Below are positions 13,527 through 63,555 of a stretch of 64,000 nt of DNA, piece by piece. Each line of letters begins with the position of its first letter. Positions within the stretch are counted from its first letter, which is position 1. A program made the translations under genes and the position numbers. The notes beneath the pieces were generated by a model. That model saw only the letters and a list, made by a program, of their open reading frames with translations, was not told the DNA's origin and made no database searches. Source of the DNA: Rhizophagus irregularis (lineage: Eukaryota; Glomeromycota; Glomeromycetes; Glomerales; Glomeraceae); the NCBI RefSeq assembly GCF_026210795.1, contig NC_089449.1, positions 3,038,001-3,102,000 on the forward strand, in the 5' to 3' direction.

Positions 13527-16500
13527 ATGGCTTCTAAATATAAAGAAGGCGATGGTTTAGAACAGCTGCAATATTCAGGTACATATTTATAACGTGGTAA
13601 GTATCATAAATAAAAGGTTTATTAACTTTTTCAATTTGATTACTACAGATCAAATTACTTCTACTGGAACTTCATATGGCGACATAAGATTTCGAAAGTC
13701 AAGAATTGACTATAAAGACCCTGATCCGATATATGATTTAAGAGGATACGAATATAAGAACAGAAAATCCTCTCGGTCACTCTTTAGAGTAAACAGGGGG
13801 GATTTACTGAATCTTATTATACTTATATTAGTAGCATTTATAGTGAGATTATATCGGTTAGATCAACCTACTTCAGTAGTGTAAGTGTTAATTTCATTTA
13901 TCGATCAATTATTTAATGATAATAGAAGCTAAGAAATTTTATTTGATTTAATGTTTATAAACAGATTCGACGAAGTACATTTTGGTGGTTTTGCAACGTA
14001 TGTTCAGCATTTTATTAAATTCTAACTTACGTGTTTTTTGTTTATTATAAGATTAATTTATTTATTTAAACTAGAAAATATATGAGAGGAAGGTTTTTTA
14101 TGGATGTGCATCCACCATTAGCAAAATTACTGATTACACTTGCTGGTGTATTAGGCGGGTTTGATGGGAGGTTTGATTTTAAAGAAATTGGCAAGTAAGT
14201 TCAAAGATGGTTGTTATTTTATTTAATTATAATTATAATTAATTTTTTCCCCTGTTTTTCCTTTATAAATACGTGACTTAGGGATTATTTGGAACCTAAA
14301 GTGCCTTATGTAGCAATGCGTTTATTACCCGCTATGTTGGGAATCTTCTTAATACCAATTTCTTATTTAACTATAAGATTATCAGGGTTCAGCAGTGCTG
14401 CGTCGTTTTTAGTAGCTGCTTTAATTATATTTGGTAATAATGAATACTTTTTTTTAGAAAAAAAATTCAAAATTTAAATAAATTTTTATTAATTTTTATA
14501 TTGGGTTCTTTAATTAAGAGAATGGGTTGGTAACACAAAGTAGGTTTATTTTACTGGATGCACCTCTTATTGCTTTCACTGGTTTTACAGTGTTAATGTG
14601 GGTAAAATTTCATAATGAGCAAACAAGGTATGAACCGATAATATATATGTTTATTTCTTCTTGTTTAACTTTCTCTTATTGATACTTAATTCTTGATAAA
14701 TTAAATATAAGACCTTTTAAATTTTGGTGGTGGGTTTGGTTGGCAATGACTGGAGTTGGACTTGGGCTTACAGTGAGGTATGTTGACAAGAATTAATTGT
14801 TATTTTTTATGGATATAGTTTAATTTTTATTTTTTTTTCTTTTTAGTTGTAAGTGGGTCGGACTTTTTACAATTGCTCATATTGGATTATCAACGATAAA
14901 GGGATTATGGGAATTACTCGGTGATTTAAGAATAACTCCGGTAAATATAAATATATTAACTTTAAAAATGATTTATAAGGATTATTTAAACAAAAAACTT
15001 TTTAACCTTTAGATTCAATGGATGAGACATTTTTTTGCTCGAGCATTATGCTTAATTGTGATTCCAATATCATTATATTGTTTCTTTTTTGTTATCCATT
15101 TTGCGATATTGCAAAATGGTGGTGATGGAGACGGATTCATGAGTTCTGAATTTCAACATACTTTAAGAGGACATGGTATGAATGATATGCCAATAGGTGT
15201 GAATTATTTTAATGTTTAGTAATTATGAATGATTTTTGATTTTTTCTGAAGAAAAATTTAATAATTTATTAAATTATTTAGACGTTGCATTTAATTCGCA
15301 AATAACATTAAGACATGTTAATACGCAGGGAGGATATTTACATTCTCATAAACACAATTATCCTGGAGGAAGCACACGTAAATAATATATTTAACCGTTA
15401 TATTTTATTATAATAACATTAATAAATATGTGTACTTTATTTAGAACAACAAATTACCTTATATCCGCATAAAGACCATAATAATTTGTGGATTTTACAA
15501 AATGAAACCAATCTCGCGGTAAATGAAACTAAACCTATTTGGGTTTATGATGGCGACGTAATTCGACTGGAACATAATTCGACTCACAGGAGGTTACATA
15601 GTCATGATGTCAGACCTCCAGTTACTGACGCAGATTTTCAGAATGAAGTTAGGTGAGGTGCTTTTGAAAGCAAATTGTTTTTTATTTATTTCTTAAATTG
15701 CTATTTACTATCAATGAAATTTTTTTTTTTAACAGTGCTTATGGTTATGAAGGATTTGAAGGGGATGCGAATGATTTTTGGCGTGTAATAATTGTGGATC
15801 ATGATAAATCAGATCCGGAATCTAAATTGCGTCTTCGTACACTCCATACAAAATTCCGTCTTCAGCATGTTATTACAGGTTGTTTTTTATTTTCCCATTC
15901 TGTGAAATTACCTGATTGGGGTTTCGATCAACAAGAGGTTACATGTGCGAAGGGTGGAAGTTTATCGAATTCAATTTGGTATATTGAAACAAATTTTCAT
16001 TCAAATAGTAAGTAGAAATTATTGTTCTTTTAAACTGAATTAAATGTTTTTAATGACTTTATTTACTATACTTTCTAGTTCCTGAAGATGCTGAGAAAGT
16101 GAATTATAAGAAGCCAGGATTCTTTGGAAAATTATTTGAACTTAATAAAGTGATGTGGAATACTAATTCTGGTCTGACAGATACTCATCCTTACCAATCA
16201 AACCCATCGTCTTGGGTTTTCATGAAAAGTGGCATTAACTTTTGGAGCAAAGATCATCGCCAAGTTTTCTTAATTGGAAATCCATTAACATGGTGGTCCT
16301 CTGCATTTGCATTAATCGTATTTGTTTTTGCAAAATCAATTATGCTCTTGAGAGCCAAAAGAGGTTATAAAGATAATAATGGTATGAATTGATACTTTAA
16401 ATTGTTTAGACTCCAAATTTCAGAATTTTACTAATATATAATATATATATCTATTTTTTTGTTGTTAGCAATAAAAGAGCATTTTGAATCCAACGCAGGC

Positions 16501-17052
16501 TTCTTCTTCATTGGATGGTGTTGTCATTATTTTCCATTCTTTTTAATGAAGCGACAACTTTTTCTGCATCATTATTTTCCAGCATTATATTATGCAATCT
16601 TACTTATTGGCATAGGATTTGATTTAGTTACAATTCGATTAAAGACAAGAAATCGTTATATAGTGGCCGTAATGTTTTTATTTGTAGCAATATATGTATT
16701 TTCATTATTTTCACCGTTGACATATAGTAATCCATGGACAAAAAAAGAATGTCACGGAGTTAAATGGTTAAACACTTGGGATTTTGATTGCAAGCATAAT
16801 TTTGATTCTTACGAACAATTTTATAAGGAGAGTTCAGAAACATTATCTGTTTCGAAAACCGATGATGGTTCTTTACCACTTGATATTAGTAGTAATGAAC
16901 TACCCGCAGAAATATTAACAAAAGAAAATGAAATAGAACAAAAGATGAATGATACTATTGTAAACAATAATGATGTTCCTGTAGATCTTGTAGAAACACA
17001 TAATGAAAAAGTTAGAGTAGATGATGATGGAGAAAGAGCTATTAATATTTAG
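13527..17052 (+). CDS. PMT4: Dolichyl-phosphate-mannose--protein mannosyltransferase, PMT4/POMT1 type
   Basis: This ER-membrane enzyme moves mannose from dolichyl-phosphate-mannose to Ser/Thr of secretory proteins. Fourteen exons (13527-13578, 13649-13880, 13965-13997, 14075-14194, 14282-14433, 14519-14627, 14712-14777, 14847-14940, 15013-15196, 15282-15377, 15445-15652, 15736-16007, 16079-16381, 16469-17052) total 2505 nt, 834 residues, exactly in frame. Landmarks in order: FDEVHFGGF with the catalytic Asp97-Glu98, MDVHPPLAKLL, DYLEPKVPYVAMR, VTQSRFILLDAPL, KWVGLFTIAHIG, the MIR-domain motifs YLHSHKHNYPGG and HRRLHSHDVRPP, IGNPLTWW and FFLMKRQLFLHHYFP. HFGGF plus GGYLHSH.HNYPGG indicates the PMT4 rather than the PMT1 or PMT2 subfamily. 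The ATG at 13520 stops after four codons, so 13527 is the start. The polar, acidic C-terminal tail of about 90 residues is longer than in yeast Pmt4 (about 760 residues in all). Confidence 0.95.
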
Positions 17053-52545: not shown

Positions 52546-54079
52546 AGCAATATTATTCGAACCGTAAAGAATTTTTATTACAGAAAAGGAAAGATTACAT
52601 AGGATGATAGGATCAAAAATTCTGGCCTAATCAAGAAATAAAACGCAGTAAACTAATTCATAAAAAAGTAAAAAAAGTGAGATCTTTTCATTTATATTCT
52701 TTATACTAAAATTATCATTAATTAATTTTTTTATTTTACTACAACACATAGAAAATAATGCTTTATCATGTGAACCTTTTGATGAAGTTTCTCTTTCAAC
52801 GGTTAATTTGAAATTCGAATAATAATAATGAAGACGGAATCTTATATTTATTTGTTAGATAATTGAAACATGCGATTATGATTATCTGGTATCCTTCTGG
52901 TATCTCGATAAGCGAGCAGAATAAGAAAAAGATTTGGAAACAGCTGAATTCACTGCTCCTCCGTCGCCAAGATCCTACTGTATGTATATTGATATGAATT
53001 GTATTGATAAGAACAAGTAGCCACTGTGGGTAGCTGAGTAAATCACCATCAGCAACTGCCACCTGAAGCAACAATCCTTTTAGCTTTCGGAAATGATATT
53101 TTCTAAAAACTGCAGGCTGTCCTATAGATTAATTTCAGGTGGTTTCATTATGTACAGTATGTCCAAATTTCGTTTTCTAAATTACAAACTGTGTTCACAT
53201 TATCAAATTTCTCCATGTATCCACACCTTCTATTCGTTTGTAGAGTTTATCTTAATTTTTCAGAGACTCGTTTTCGTAGTAATAGTTTCTTATAATATGG
53301 TCGAAGTTATCTTTAATTTGAATTTCTTTCAAATAAAATACAAAGAAAATTTTCAATTAAACAAAATGAATTCTTTATTACAAGTTTATGTCTTTTAAAC
53401 CAAACCATTCTTTTAAGCGATACAAATTTTTGATGTTTCCAATAAATTTGAACTATTAATAATATCTAAGCTTCTTGAAACATCCAAAACGTGCCATAAT
53501 CGAAAGGTGTGATATAGATTAATTAATAGCCAATCGATGCAAAATTGAACATTACTAGTTTTAGAAAGTAACACTTGAATGAAAAAAATTATTATTTTCC
53601 CAATATAAAACTTTATAAACTGATTTTCCTGGTACTTACTAGTTACGTGAAATTTTTTTTTTTTATTATTATCATAATTGAAAGATATTGTACAGCTTCA
53701 TTGAGTTGATTATATTCATTACGAAGTTATCGCCATTTATAACCGATTATAATCAAATTTGGTAATTTTTTTTTATGAATAGTTTGATGTTAATTACACC
53801 AATTTTCCACAATTTATGGGGTCGATTATCCAAAAAAAAAAAATAAGAGTGTAACATTTCTTAGTCTAAATAAAGTTAATTAACCGAGCCATATATTTTA
53901 TTATTACAGTACGGTTAATTAACCGGTTAAATAATTTTCCTTTTTTTAACACAAAATTTCCATTTTTTCACTAGCGTAAATTGTATAATTCTTTATATAA
54001 CCATTCATTTTTTTTATCGCCTCAATTCGCTGGATATATTTATTTCTTACAAACAACTAAATAAGAAACTAAATATCAG
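52546..54079. other. Intergenic DNA, possibly with kinase tail remnants
   Basis: Just after the kinase remnant, pieces such as NNALSCEPFDEVSLSTVN (about 52750-52805) and IWYPSGISISEQNKKKIWKQ (about 52880-52940) could be its decayed C-terminal tail. From about 53100 on I see no gene; the frame at 53093-53398 is not convincing. A TTAACCGGTTAA palindrome lies at 53919-53930. Confidence 0.35.
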
Positions 54080-55954
54080 ATGATAAGAAAAGAGAGAAAG
54101 AAAGGCGCCGTTTGGAAACATTTCTTCAAGACTGTAGTTGAAAGCAATAACTCACATCCTTTTGTGCAATGTAAATACTGTTGCAAAAATTATCAACGAG
54201 CTGTTCCTGAACGAATGCAAGCCCACCTTGACAAATGTTCAAAAGCACCGAGTAATGCAAAATCACAACCCAAACAACAACAATTAATTAACAATTTTAA
54301 TGGTGGCCATATGAGTGAAGATCAGAATGCTAATATATTATCTTCACAACATTTTACTCAACGTCCTCAATCATCTTTCGAGTTACAAGATAGTGAAGAA
54401 ATGAACATGCAAATAGAGTATAGTGACCAATCAGAACCTCCAAGTAATATACGTCATCTAGGTTATTGTTATCAGTACGGAATAGGAATTGAAAAAAATG
54501 AAATCAGAGCATTTCAATTGTACAAAGAAGCAGCTGAAAAAGGTCATATTAATTCAAAATATGATCTTGGAAGATGTTATCTACATGGAGTAGGAATTGA
54601 AAAAAATGAAATTAAAGCATTTGAATTATATAAAGAAGTAGCTCAAAATGGTCATATAACTTCAATATATGAGCTTGGAGAATGTTATCAATATGGAATG
54701 GGAACGGAAAAAAATGAAATTAAAGCATTTGGATTTTACAAAGTAGCAGCTGAAAAAGGGCACATTACTTCAATATATAAACTTGGAGAATGCTATAAAA
54801 ATGGAATAGGAACTGTAATAAATAAAATCAAAGCATTTGAATTTTACAAAGAAGCGGCCCAAAAAGGTCATATTACTTCAATATTTAAACTTGGATATTG
54901 TTATAATCATGGAACAGGAACTGAAATAAATAAAATTAAAGCATTTGAATCATATAAAGAAGCAGCTGAAAAAGGTTACATTACTTCAATACATAAGCTT
55001 GGAGAATGTTATCAATATGGAATAGGAACTGAAAAAGACGAAAACAAAGCATTTGAGTCATATAAAGAAGCAGCTTTTTTTAAAGATTCGGTGTCATGGC
55101 GTAAACTTGGAGAATGTTATCAATATGGAATAGGGACCGAAAAAGATAAAAACAAAGCATTTGAGTTATATAAAGAAGCAGTTGATAAATTTGATGATTT
55201 AGAGTCATTGCGTAAACTTGGAGAATGTTATCGGTATGTAAGAGGGACTGAAAAAGATGAAACTAAAGCATTTGAGTCATACAAAGAAGCAACTGAATTT
55301 GGTAATTTCCTGGCATTGCATGAACTTGGAGAATGTTATCGATATGGAATAGGAACTGAAATAAATAAAATTAAAGCGTTTGAGTCATACAAAGAAGCAG
55401 CTGAACAAGGTCATATTAGTTCGTTATATGAGCTTGGAAAATGTTATCGATATGGAATAGGGACTGAAAAAGATGAAACTAAAGCATTTGAGTCATACAA
55501 AGAAGCAACTGAATTTGGTAATTGCTTGGCATTGCATGAACTTGGAGAATGTTATCGATATGGAATAGGGACTGAAAAAAATGAAAGCATAACATTTGAG
55601 TTATATAAAGAAGCAGTTGAGGAATTTGATGATTTGGAGTCATGGCGTAAACTTGGAGAATGTTATCAATATGGAATAGGGACCGGAAAGGATGAAAACA
55701 AAGCATTTGAGTTATATAAAGAAGCAGTTGAGGAATTTTATGATTTGGAGTCATGGCGTAAACTTGGAGAATGTTATCAATATGGAATAGGGACCGAAAA
55801 AGATGAAAACAAAGCATTTAAGTTATATAAAGAAGCAGTTGAATTTGGTGATTTGAGGTCATTGCATAAACTTGGAGAATGTTATCAATATGGAATAGGA
55901 ACTGAAATAAATAAAATTAAAGCGTTTAAATTATTTAGAAGCGGCTTAAAATGA
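54080..55954 (+). CDS. BED-type zinc finger plus Sel1-repeat protein
   Basis: An intact single-exon gene of 624 residues. The N-terminus has a BED-type finger with zinc ligands Cys31, Cys34, His49 and Cys53 (C-x2-C-x14-H-x3-C), a fold found in transposases and chromatin-binding proteins. A polar Gln/Ser-rich linker follows. Residues 127 to the end are 14 Sel1 repeats of 36-37 residues with the pattern LGECYQYGIGTEKDE.KAFE.YKEA, the last one cut short. Sel1 repeats are alpha-helical protein-binding scaffolds often found in ER quality control and signalling. Neighbouring repeats 11-13 are very alike at DNA level, a sign of recent repeat amplification. A 2-bp deletion in the last repeat has removed the original tail (see findings). 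The ATG at 54080 has no in-frame alternative before the finger. DNA binding and partners are unknown. Confidence 0.88.
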   Translation: MIRKERKKGAVWKHFFKTVVESNNSHPFVQCKYCCKNYQRAVPERMQAHLDKCSKAPSNAKSQPKQQQLINNFNGGHMSEDQNANILSSQHFTQRPQSSFELQDSEEMNMQIEYSDQSEPPSNIRHLGYCYQYGIGIEKNEIRAFQLYKEAAEKGHINSKYDLGRCYLHGVGIEKNEIKAFELYKEVAQNGHITSIYELGECYQYGMGTEKNEIKAFGFYKVAAEKGHITSIYKLGECYKNGIGTVINKIKAFEFYKEAAQKGHITSIFKLGYCYNHGTGTEINKIKAFESYKEAAEKGYITSIHKLGECYQYGIGTEKDENKAFESYKEAAFFKDSVSWRKLGECYQYGIGTEKDKNKAFELYKEAVDKFDDLESLRKLGECYRYVRGTEKDETKAFESYKEATEFGNFLALHELGECYRYGIGTEINKIKAFESYKEAAEQGHISSLYELGKCYRYGIGTEKDETKAFESYKEATEFGNCLALHELGECYRYGIGTEKNESITFELYKEAVEEFDDLESWRKLGECYQYGIGTGKDENKAFELYKEAVEEFYDLESWRKLGECYQYGIGTEKDENKAFKLYKEAVEFGDLRSLHKLGECYQYGIGTEINKIKAFKLFRSGLK

Positions 55955-60222: not shown

Positions 60223-63200
60223 TTACTCTTTATCATTGACCCAATTTTGAACCCATTCTTTAGCTTTTTCAGAAATAATATTTCTTTTTTCTTCATTTTC
60301 AACCATTTTCTTTAAAGCTTTTTCAGCTTTTTCATAACACATTTCACATTCGTCTTTAAAATTTTCAAACATAATTATTTCAAGATATTTCATAGAAATA
60401 CAAGTAGTTAATATCTCTTCAATTTCCTTAATTTCTCCAATTTCCTTTTTAATTTCTTGTTTTAAATCATTTAAATCATTTAAATCATTTTTATAAAAAA
60501 ATTCATAAAATGATTTATTTGGTAAGAATTTACCATCAAATGATTGTAGTCCTAATAATTCAAATAAATTTTCAACGTTTGATTCTTTATGATTAATTTT
60601 AATTTCGAGCTGTTCAATTTCTTGTAATGTCGTTTCCTGTGCTACATGTTGCGATCTTGCAGCTGAAGTTGTTAGTTGTTTTCTGGGAGCTTTACCACCC
60701 GTTGATTTTCTGGCTGTTCGATTTGTTGCGGAACGTTTTGGAGGTGGTGGAGCATCTATTTATTAAATGTTTATTAAAAAAATATTTCTTATTTATTTTT
60801 TTTTTAATTATAAATTAATTTAAATAAAATGATTCCTTTACCATCATCTTCATCATCTTCATCATTCATTGCATCAAAACTTATTCTTCGATGCCTTTTA
60901 GCACCACCCTTACCAACTATGTAATAAATATTATTAATTAGAATTTTTCTATTAAAAAAAAATTAAGTTTTATATAATACACGAAATATAATGTATTTCT
61001 ATTTTTTTTTCTTATAAAATTGATACATACGTCCTGATAATCCCCTGCCTGAACCAGATGAGACAACAGCTTGGGGGACAATTACTTGCTTTGCTTTGAT
61101 AAAAACTTCATCAGGTTCACTTGTCCTTTCATCAATTCCAATAAAACTTGTAAAAATAATAAGATATTAAATAATAAATATGAGAGTGGATATGTATTGT
61201 AATATAATACTATCATAATAAAAATTGAAAAATTTATTTATACCTTGTATGTTTTGATGCTAAATTAAAAGTTTTACCAAGTTTAACAATATATTCTTTA
61301 GCTGAAATATTTTTACCAGCATTTTTAGGATTCTTATGAAGAAATGATTTTTCATCATCAAGATCTTGAATGAGTTTTCTTACTGCTAATCTATGAATAA
61401 TTGAACCTTGTAAAGTGACAGGATCCAAAGGAATATCAAGTTTAATGGGACCATCTTGAGAAGTAGCATTTAAAGTAATAACTTTACACGGTTCAATATT
61501 TTTTTCCAAAATACAATAAACAATAAAACGAACACCTGGATAAATTGGTGGAATGAAATATGGAGCTTGTTGAACTTTAAAATCGGTAAAAATATCATTT
61601 TGTGATGATGATGTATTATCACTCGCAAAATTAATATCTTGCATCATATCTGATTCTTCATTTTTATTTGATTCTAAGAAATTATTATCGGTCCAAGTAA
61701 TTTCATAATCCTTGATTGGTGGTTTCAATGCATTCTTTAACATTCCAATAACTTTTTTGTCCATCCTTTCACTATTTGTTACAAATTGAGCATATCCTTT
61801 ACCGGTACGAGCAACAGACTCGACTAAGTGATGAGAAACCGCATCACCAATTCCTAACGAGAAAAGACGTAGGTCACCGTCCTTTTTTTCTTCATTTGTA
61901 CGTACAAGTTCTACAATCTGATTAACATTCCAAACTTCACCATCTGTAATAAGAAATACAGTAGTTGCCATATCATTTCTTGAATTTTCAAATGACCATT
62001 TTAGTGCACTATAAACTTCTGTCCCTCCATAATTTGAAGTCATCTTTTGAGCAAGATTAATAGCTTCAGATAAAGATTCTTCGGAATAAAGTTGACTTTT
62101 AGGGAAAAGAGAATCATGATGACTTCCAAATGAAACTACATTAAAGTAACAATCTTCAGGAATTGAACGTAATAATAATTCAAGTGCTTGCGCAGCCTTC
62201 TTCATAGGCTCAACAGACATTGAACCCGATCTATCCCATATCAACAAAAATAAATATATATATTATATTATCGATGTTAATTAAATTTAGTAAAATTATC
62301 ACGCTTAATTTAAATTATATCATACCTATCAACGACAAAAATTAGTTCAGTAATAGTTGTATTCAATGAAAATTTCGGAACCAAAGTTAACATAACACAG
62401 TTAGTTTGTGTTTCAGGATTGTATTCAAGAAAAGCACTAAAAGATACAAGAAAATCAAATAATTATATTAATTATATTTAAGAATGAATTAATAACAAAT
62501 AGATAATATAAATATTTGTATTTACCGTGGTTGATCAAGATCTTTACTTTTAACTACAAGAATAAAATCTTTTTCTAAATAAGTGATTTGATCAGCTAAA
62601 GTGATCTTTGAAATTTTAGGATTTTCGTCAATATTCATTTCAGTAGAAATTTTATGTGAAGGTGATTCAATACTTTGAATAATTGAAGTCATTCTACAAG
62701 TAACAGTGAGGTCTAAATAAAAATTAGCTTCTTTAGAATATAACACGGCATCAGGCTCAAGAATTTTCCCGTCATTTGATGATGATGTTGAAGTCGAAGT
62801 TGAAGAGCCGTATCTTGGCACGATATGAGTTGGAAGAACAAATCGGATTTTCTCTGTTTCAGAATCGTGTTTAAGTTCAGAAACATACGTAATCTTTACG
62901 ACTATAGTTTGTCCGGATGTAATATTTCCAATAGAACATTGAAATACATCTGCGGATTCAGATTCTAACAAATATGCGCCATGTCCTTTCTAATCAATTT
63001 AAGAAAAATAATTTAAATGTAAATATATGAATAAATAATAATTTATATTAAAAATTAGTTTTTAAAGGTATTTTTTACCTCAATTGCTTCAGTATATTCT
63101 TGTGCGGCTTTTTTTGCTTCTTTTACGACGCCTTTTACTTTTCTTTGTCCATCAATATCTGCTTCAAATCCGCAGACTGCTGCGGCTTCATGAATGGGAA

Positions 63201-63555
63201 ACTTATATCGAGCTTCAATAGGATCTTTTTCAACATTTTTATAAGTTTGGCTGATTGTAACTTTATAAAAGGAAAAAAAAGAAAATAATTATAATATTTA
63301 AATATTTATGTAAATATATATAGGTTACAATTATTTTATAATTTTGACCAAATTTTAACAAACCTTCAGTTATCATATCAACAACTATAAGTGAAATTTA
63401 GAATTTGGAAATTTAATTGATTACATAATAATAATCATAGTACAAACGCCAGATTATCAGTTTTTAAACTTACTATTAGCTTCAATGACAACATTTTGTA
63501 AAGGAATCGGAGTTTCTTTATTCTCAATTACACAACAAAGGCCGTAAATTTGCAT
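60223..63555 (-). CDS. VIT and von Willebrand A domain protein with H3-tail-like segment
   Basis: Nine minus-strand exons (63474-63555, 63364-63384, 63079-63260, 62526-62989, 62326-62436, 61244-62230, 61031-61146, 60842-60916, 60223-60755) total 2571 nt, 856 residues, exactly in frame. Residues 1 to about 130 are a VIT domain (MQIYGLCCV.., VTISQTYKNVEKDPIEARYK, FPIHEAAAVCGFEADIDG). The vWA domain starts at about 280 (ELIFVVDRSGSM) with all five metal-site residues: Asp286, Ser288, Ser290, Thr357, Asp383. A basic/acidic linker follows (KRHRRISFDAMNDEDDEDD, about 655-680), the H3-like segment at 693-707, and a helical C-terminus containing LLGLQSFDGKFLP, as at the end of other VIT proteins. The architecture is that of inter-alpha-trypsin-inhibitor heavy chains, VWA5A and PARP4. 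No signal peptide is visible, so it is probably intracellular. An upstream non-ATG exon before 63555 cannot be excluded. Confidence 0.92.
60673..60717 (-). other. Segment identical to histone H3 residues 6-20
   Basis: Within the last exon of the VIT-VWA gene, residues 693-707 read TARKSTGGKAPRKQL, identical to histone H3 residues 6-20. The following TTSAARS resembles H3 ATKAARKS, and an Arg precedes where H3 has Gln5. Lys696, Ser697, Lys701 and Lys705 match H3 Lys9, Ser10, Lys14 and Lys18. The reading frame is secure because the exon is open to its stop codon. Whether it is modified or bound by histone readers is not known. Confidence 0.93.

Follow-up and report, generated by a model that had tools for sequence, protein, structure and literature searches.

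Consecutive histone H4-tail and H3-tail matches in the linker of a VIT-vWA protein of Rhizophagus irregularis

We analyzed a 64,000-nucleotide stretch of the Rhizophagus irregularis genome (the window, C21:3038001-3102000 of 146.7 Mb in 32 contigs) and found that a gene near its end encodes a protein with VIT and vWA domains (the VIT-vWA gene) in which one linker carries an H4-tail match, an acidic spacer, and an H3-tail match, in that order. The initial annotation of this DNA had reported 15 consecutive residues of histone H3 (residues 6-20) in the protein, and this H3-tail match is genuine and more than chance: all 15 residues are identical on the minus strand, which had gone unstated and which is the coding strand because the plus strand has stops at 60673-60717. 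The partial match said to follow it, TTSAARS in place of ATKAARKS of H3, is present as claimed. When the linker alone was compared with PDB chains by phmmer, histone H3 was recovered at E 3.3e-6, and the best 60 of the 142 matches consisted entirely of H3 and H3 chimeras, with no match to the H4 part among these 60. The description of an H3 mimic was confirmed for H3 but was incomplete, as the linker combines H4 plus H3. The two exons before the H3 match encode an H4-tail mimic, reading SGSGRGLSG before and LGKGGAKRHRR after the intron (61031/60916) that splits it, and GLGKGGAKRHR corresponds to H4 9-19 with 11 of 11 consecutive identities. The stretch preceding the H3 match reads SSGSGRGLSGLGKGGAKRHRRISFDAMNDEDDEDD. 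The KRHRR motif, which had been noted next to the H3 match along with an acidic run, is also there and belongs to the H4 mimic. Of the three H4 genes of the fungus that were read, one starts (M)SGRGKGG and two start (M)TGRGKGG. Exon shuffling of a histone exon was not supported as a source, since the fungus's own H4 crosses the stretch in one open frame whereas the mimic is split by its intron inside GLG. Taken with the comparisons below, we consider it very probable that the linker is a real and selected histone mimic.

DNA encoding ARKSTGG occurs at eight places in the genome, namely five H3 loci (C3, C6 twice, C15, and C19), the VIT-vWA gene, and two in a paralog on C14, and DNA encoding GGAKRHR occurs at five (three H4 genes, the VIT-vWA gene, and the C14 paralog), both counts covering exact, unspliced (intron-free) matches only. 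The reversed-pattern controls for the two motifs gave 0 and 0. Of 77 non-redundant linkers (from 111 usable linkers of 121 proteins), 5 contained a run of at least 8 residues identical to the H3 or H4 tail, compared with a shuffle mean of 0.002 and with 0 for reversed histone tails. Once these five were set aside, shorter matches, of 4, 5, and 6 residues (including RKSAPA in P0127 and RKSAP in P0180), were no commoner than with reversed tails.

Over 15 codons, the H3 core differs from the nearest H3 gene of the fungus (C6) by 9 nucleotides and 7 codons but by 0 amino acids, with approximately 12.2 synonymous sites; when codons for the same peptide were re-drawn at random, the nearest own H3 was on average 8.8 differences away, and the probability of at most 9 was 0.64. 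The nine codons of GKGGAKRHR show 8 nucleotide, 7 codon, and 0 amino-acid differences from the own H4. The mimics are not recent copies, because their codons are no closer to the own histones than re-drawn codons are. A comparison with the species' H3 genes had been suggested in the initial annotation, and its outcome is that silent sites differ as much as re-drawn codons while the peptide is unchanged. The accompanying proposal, capture of a histone fragment or strong selection to imitate the tail, survives in part: the codon pattern fits an old capture followed by peptide-level constraint, tight in the core and loose in the flanks, but the freely varying flanks speak against tight imitation of the whole tail. 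Selection on the core peptide is likely, judging from these codons. An annotation or assembly error joining histone DNA to the VIT-vWA gene has a very small chance of being the explanation. The gene model P0004, which joins differently and lacks GKGGAKRHR, might be taken to favor it, but the codons are unlike those of the own histone genes compared, a single reading frame continues into the conserved C-terminal domain, and the segment, far from missing in all orthologs, has the same H4-H3 arrangement in two further R. irregularis records, P0002 and P0003, as well as in P0005 of R. clarus. On the codons and this shared arrangement, we rejected assembly error and recent gene conversion from the own histone genes. 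It is improbable that the mimics are a functionless remnant, that is, an old histone-coding insertion drifting in a permissive disordered linker. The linker is predicted to be disordered, and flanks and several alleles and paralogs are degraded, which would favor this reading; on the other side, the 24 core H3 and H4 codons, which are ascertained stretches, hold 17 nucleotide but 0 amino-acid differences, the H3 core is tandemly triplicated in the C14 paralog, and it recurs elsewhere in the family, on a separate branch.

The nine-exon model of the VIT-vWA gene (C21:3098223-3101555; introns GT..AG) matches all 856 residues of the database protein P0001 (R. irregularis OCT59_014089), and the frame of the last exon, for which confirmation had been advised, runs on into the conserved C-terminal domain (Table 1). 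A Pfam scan of P0001 at E up to 1 yielded no histone family, hence no histone fold match, and no histone reader domain. In an alignment of 48 relatives, residues D286, S288, and S290 of the vWA domain are almost invariant and P640 is the sole nearly invariant residue of the linker. An AlphaFold2 model built from 48 sequences (mean predicted local distance difference test score, pLDDT, of 75) consists of a folded core and a helical C-terminal domain with the linker (approximately 625-732) between them. The linker, 108 residues long, has pLDDT values below 50 at residues 625-631, 635-683, and 685-732 and no secondary structure, and it is predicted to be disordered. The VIT-vWA core has an ITIH-like fold, with ITIH1 (6fpy) as the best PDB match (E 1.1e-31, template modeling score by query 0.41). 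The C-terminal domain is conserved within the aligned relatives.

Table 1. Features of the VIT-vWA gene and of its C14 paralog (window positions unless a contig is given; aa, amino acid residues; MIDAS, metal ion-dependent adhesion site)
Feature	Position	Strand	Basis or sequence
VIT-vWA gene, 9 coding exons, 856 aa	60223..63555	-	splice model and identity to P0001
Exons 1-5 of VIT-vWA gene	63555-63474, 63384-63364, 63260-63079, 62989-62526, 62436-62326	-	
Exons 6-9 of VIT-vWA gene	62230-61244, 61146-61031, 60916-60842, 60755-60223	-	
VIT domain, aa 19-130, introns inside	62885..63501	-	Pfam PF08487, E 4.5e-34
vWA domain, aa 280-436, one intron inside, MIDAS-like DRSGSM	61783..62348	-	Pfam PF13768, E 5.4e-25
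Hypervariable linker, predicted disordered, with both mimics, aa 625-732, two introns inside	60598..61121	-	AlphaFold2
H4 mimic part 1, end of exon 7	61031..61052	-	SGRGLSG and first base of next codon
H4 mimic part 2	60873..60916	-	(L)GKGGAKRHRRISFD
Acidic spacer between H4 and H3 mimics	60842..60872	-	AMNDEDDEDD
H3-tail-like region aligned to H3 2-28, 20/27 identical	60649..60729	-	by eye
Exact H3 6-20 core, aa 693-707, 15/15 identical	60673..60717	-	ACAGCCAGAAAATCAACGGGTGGTAAAGCTCCCAGAAAACAACTA
Helical C-terminal domain, aa 740-853	60235..60576	-	AlphaFold2 helices; conserved among aligned relatives
C14 paralog, H3 units and H4-like short exon	C14:838017-838523 and 837810		sequence patterns (L046)

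Relatives were drawn from the best 120 of 139 and the best 120 of 960 database proteins, and 121 family members were examined. The VIT-vWA core is highly conserved across the family and the linkers are mostly unlike each other. The search of VIT-vWA relatives for the segment, which the initial annotation had recommended, recovered versions of it in R. clarus, in the C14 paralog, and in Cetraspora. R. clarus P0005 carries both mimics in the same order, with an H4 part GGAKRHRKIL, SGRGLGVGGAKRHRKIL, and a 27-residue H3 part. In the fungus's paralog at C14:835-838 kb, a short exon of its own encodes the H4 mimic (VGVGGAKRHRQILRD, with the H4 stretch GGAKRHRQILRD), and a 62-residue stretch contains three tandem TARK(A/S)TGG units; the same three H3 units are found in P0006, its closest database relative (16 member sequences). 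Cetraspora pellucida P0130 and P0132 each contain a 12-residue H3-tail-like stretch with an R(T/S)-led core. Searched alone with phmmer, the P0132 linker matched nothing in the PDB at E up to 1, so its H3 match rests on exact identity over 10-12 residues; a search with P0132 (30 proteins) returned six new proteins, none of which had the H3 core by pattern search. Glomus cerebriforme P0012 and P0047 have neither mimic. Common to most H3 copies is T6-A7-R8-K9-(S/A)10-T11-G12-G13, and G13-G14-A15-K16-R17-H18-R19 of H4 is kept in the three clear H4 parts (the VIT-vWA gene, the C14 paralog, and P0005) but not in P0006. P0130 has an N-terminal extension of approximately 500 residues that holds a weak fungal MACPF-like match at residues 125-189 (E 0.0015, below the cut-off) and may be a fused gene model, and Racocetra fulgida P0202, in which ubiquitin domains and other sequence are joined to the VIT-vWA C-terminal part, is probably a merged gene model.

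A quick tree was built from 71 of the 121 family proteins after near-copies and fragments were dropped. The H3 label, which included the degraded P0007-P0011 and the weak P0156, required three changes on this 71-row tree, all forced by starred branches, and one of the three is the weak Diversispora P0156 (TARRSTGG). The Cetraspora H3 cores lie on a separate family branch from the Rhizophagus rows, and a single clade of all H3 cores, uniting the four Rhizophagus rows with the two from Cetraspora, was rejected by the approximately unbiased (AU) test on 35 rows (p-AU 5.6e-45; the tested group was named after the first tree). The H3 core may have been gained twice, or gained once long ago and then lost several times, since change counts cannot separate gain from loss.

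We tentatively propose that the linker is a ligand or substrate of the fungus's own histone-tail writers and readers, by way of the H3K9 site and the H4 basic patch, a reading of the conserved residues that we regard as a serious possibility short of being probable. The VIT-vWA scaffold would display an H4-tail peptide and then an H3-tail peptide in its disordered linker, both most likely captured long ago. Around its K9 equivalent, the H3 part may be bound by a SUV39/Clr4-type methyltransferase and an HP1-type chromodomain, the H4 part may act through the K16-R-H-R basic patch, and the scaffold would thereby be tethered to, or hold back, histone-tail enzymes and readers. SUV39/Clr4 and HP1 recognize the H3 K9 context. 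As candidate writers, the genome has a Pre-SET match on C32 (E 2.1e-17) and another on C11 (E 8.7e-8), and an own-genome profile search gave one partial chromoshadow match as a candidate reader (C8, E 2.8e-4). The Pre-SET match on C11 (C11:3639337-3641479) has five stops read through, which may be introns or decay, and a divergent H3-like sequence is situated approximately 1.3 kb away.

The tails of H3 and H4 also serve as import signals, which Kap123 and other importin-beta proteins read, and nuclear-import mimicry, in which the linker would take the scaffold into the nucleus or keep these importins occupied, is a competing explanation that we judge unlikely. FG (phenylalanine-glycine) repeats bind importins, and as FG linkers occur in this family, the same receptor class would unify the contents of the slot. 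Kap123 binds H3 1-28 and H4 1-34, and its pockets receive K14 and K23 of H3 and K16 of H4 (PMC5677370); H4 K16-R17-H18-R19 is present in the VIT-vWA gene, the C14 paralog, and P0005, and K14 is kept in the VIT-vWA gene and in unit 3 of the C14 paralog. The same residues also speak against import, in that K23 is S in the VIT-vWA gene, K14 is replaced by I in R. clarus and by T in both Cetraspora and C14 units 1-2, K14 and K23 are never kept together, and P0006 is without H4 K16. K9, by comparison, is kept in the R. clarus, C14, and Cetraspora copies even though it makes no ordered contact in the Kap123 structure (PMC5677370). Given the persistence of K9, and with K14 and K23 never occurring in the same copy, we prefer a ligand or substrate of K9 writers or readers, plus an H4 basic patch, to the import and decoy readings. 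For the H3 part, a protein that uses the K9 site is a better account than Kap123; the H4 part is compatible with both.

A number of observations weigh against the proposal that the linker engages histone-tail machinery. P0006 has lost K16, its H4 part reading GGAIRHRQIL with I at H4 K16; a third own paralog (C14:951.8-956.0 kb) is worn down to a 13-residue remnant; the mimics of P0007-P0011 are degraded; T6 is changed to I in P0003; and the linker of Diversispora epigaea P0156, FKSTARRSTGG, is H3-like with R at the K9 place. Residues outside the H3 and H4 cores vary freely, which argues against tight whole-tail imitation. Over the wider H3 region (24-27 codons), the proportion of synonymous differences (pS) was 0.47-0.79 and that of nonsynonymous differences (pN) was 0.21-0.24, with values of 0.68-0.83 and 0.17, respectively, for the wider H4 region (16 codons); for the H4 stretches of the two own loci, pN (0.23) exceeded pS (0.09), which speaks against a uniform constraint. 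The unchanged core stretches were chosen for their identity, and this ascertainment, along with saturation, bears on the inference of selection. In addition, published accounts place the nearest relatives that have been studied in the cytoplasm or in both nucleus and cytoplasm, and do not present them as chromatin proteins (PMC10539598).

The same linker position holds other contents in other family members. FG linkers, defined by six or more FG dipeptides, occur in 10 of the 71 tree rows and account for 2 changes on the tree. P0034, encoded in the fungus's own genome (C2:2610-2615 kb), passes the Pfam Nucleoporin_FG cut-off with 34.8 bits versus 32.2, whereas PF13634 was not matched, at E up to 1, by P0170 and P0146, which we had also labeled FG, or by P0001, the product of the VIT-vWA gene. 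FG-rich linkers in this slot were seen in P0034 (L049, C2:2610000-2614800), P0015, P0032, P0033, P0035, P0146, and P0154, and further ones in P0163, P0164, P0166, P0169, P0170, P0172, and P0181. A Pfam FG search of the own genome picked up a single locus, the VIT-vWA one at C2:2613 kb, and did not recover any nucleoporin, which marks the search as insensitive and uninformative on nucleoporins. When ten Rhizophagus and Glomus linkers without histone content were compared end to end with PDB sequences, three matches at E up to 5 were obtained, the best of which (0.041) was to T-cell receptors, and these were judged to be chance. The idea that the P0013 linker represents the start of a dynein intermediate chain was discarded, as no such Pfam family appeared at E up to 1 and no PDB relative was found. 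For two types of content, histone tails and FG repeats, the sequences support reading the linker as a slot that holds nuclear mimics. The broader notion of an interchangeable display slot lying between the core and the C-terminal domain in the VIT-vWA family of arbuscular mycorrhizal fungi, in which the cell's own nuclear interaction peptides (H4, single or tandem H3, and FG) would make programmable adaptors or decoys for chromatin and transport, with H3 acquired more than once, is in our view doubtful. Integrated decoys in plant nucleotide-binding leucine-rich repeat (NLR) receptors work by displaying attacked targets, and a decoy slot of that type would have a fast-changing linker showing copies of conserved nuclear targets so as to catch or sense foreign proteins that would attack or exploit them. 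The conserved core with dissimilar linkers, the several paralogs, the cluster on C2, and two unrelated nuclear-protein-like contents in the same slot would suit such an arrangement. It is nevertheless quite improbable: nothing seen ties the family to defense, and the ten non-histone linkers without a convincing PDB relative indicate that much of the slot is not recognizable mimicry.

Elsewhere in the window, an open frame of 629 residues at 54065-55954 (plus strand) contains 13 Sel1 repeats, and its N-terminal stretch we take, by eye, to resemble a BED-type zinc finger. At 16435-17052 (plus strand) lies a protein O-mannosyltransferase exon encoding the C-terminal region with four transmembrane segments (PF16192, E 4e-35).

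Histone mimicry itself is known. No description of a tandem H4-plus-H3 mimic of such length in a VIT-vWA protein was found in the open-access literature, among the titles of the matches listed, and to that extent this two-tail mimic is new. The AutoN motif of ISWI has been likened to the H4 basic patch. AutoN regulates a user of the H4 tail as a short motif inside the enzyme and is reported not to be a simple pseudosubstrate (PMC5305211); the H4 copy described here is longer, and the protein that carries it is of another type. The non-histone substrates of G9a/GLP, such as WIZ, LIG1, and ATF7IP, have an H3K9-like motif that is methylated and then read by a chromodomain (PMC6172828, PMC10611923). 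The VIT-vWA protein is similarly a non-histone protein with a K9 context, but its matches extend beyond the ARK/ARKS scale of those substrates to 15 H3 and 11 H4 residues in one linker. In BAZ2B, a disordered, histone-mimicking interdomain linker inhibits the protein's own PHD finger through a lysine-rich resemblance (PMC5663869), which shows that a linker of histone-like sequence between domains can have a regulatory role. Both proteins have an H3-tail-resembling linker between domains, disordered by prediction in ours; the VIT-vWA linker differs in being made of near-exact copies and in having no histone reader domain in the same protein by Pfam. H3-tail mimicry in a non-histone protein has also been proposed for influenza NS1 (as cited in PMC5663869) and for SARS-CoV-2 ORF8, where the ARKS mimicry claim is disputed (PMC10833455). 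Those mimics are viral and short, whereas this one is encoded by the fungus's own gene and presumably acts in its own cell. The intracellular proteins VWA5A and Dictyostelium Vwa1 share the VIT and vWA domains and the ITIH-like fold with the protein, and they have a C-terminal domain to which its helical one may correspond (PMC10539598). No histone-like linker is mentioned for them, and the main text of that report contains no word beginning with "histone".

The cellular histone mimics in the reports cited above are motif-sized, and here two tails stand in order in one non-histone scaffold. Arbuscular mycorrhizal fungi are hard to manipulate genetically. Anti-H3K9me and anti-H3K14ac antibodies and tail-peptide proteomics used in these fungi could pick up the VIT-vWA protein. 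With these mimics it can be tested directly whether chromatin enzymes are rewired in evolution when segments of histone tails are transplanted into other proteins.
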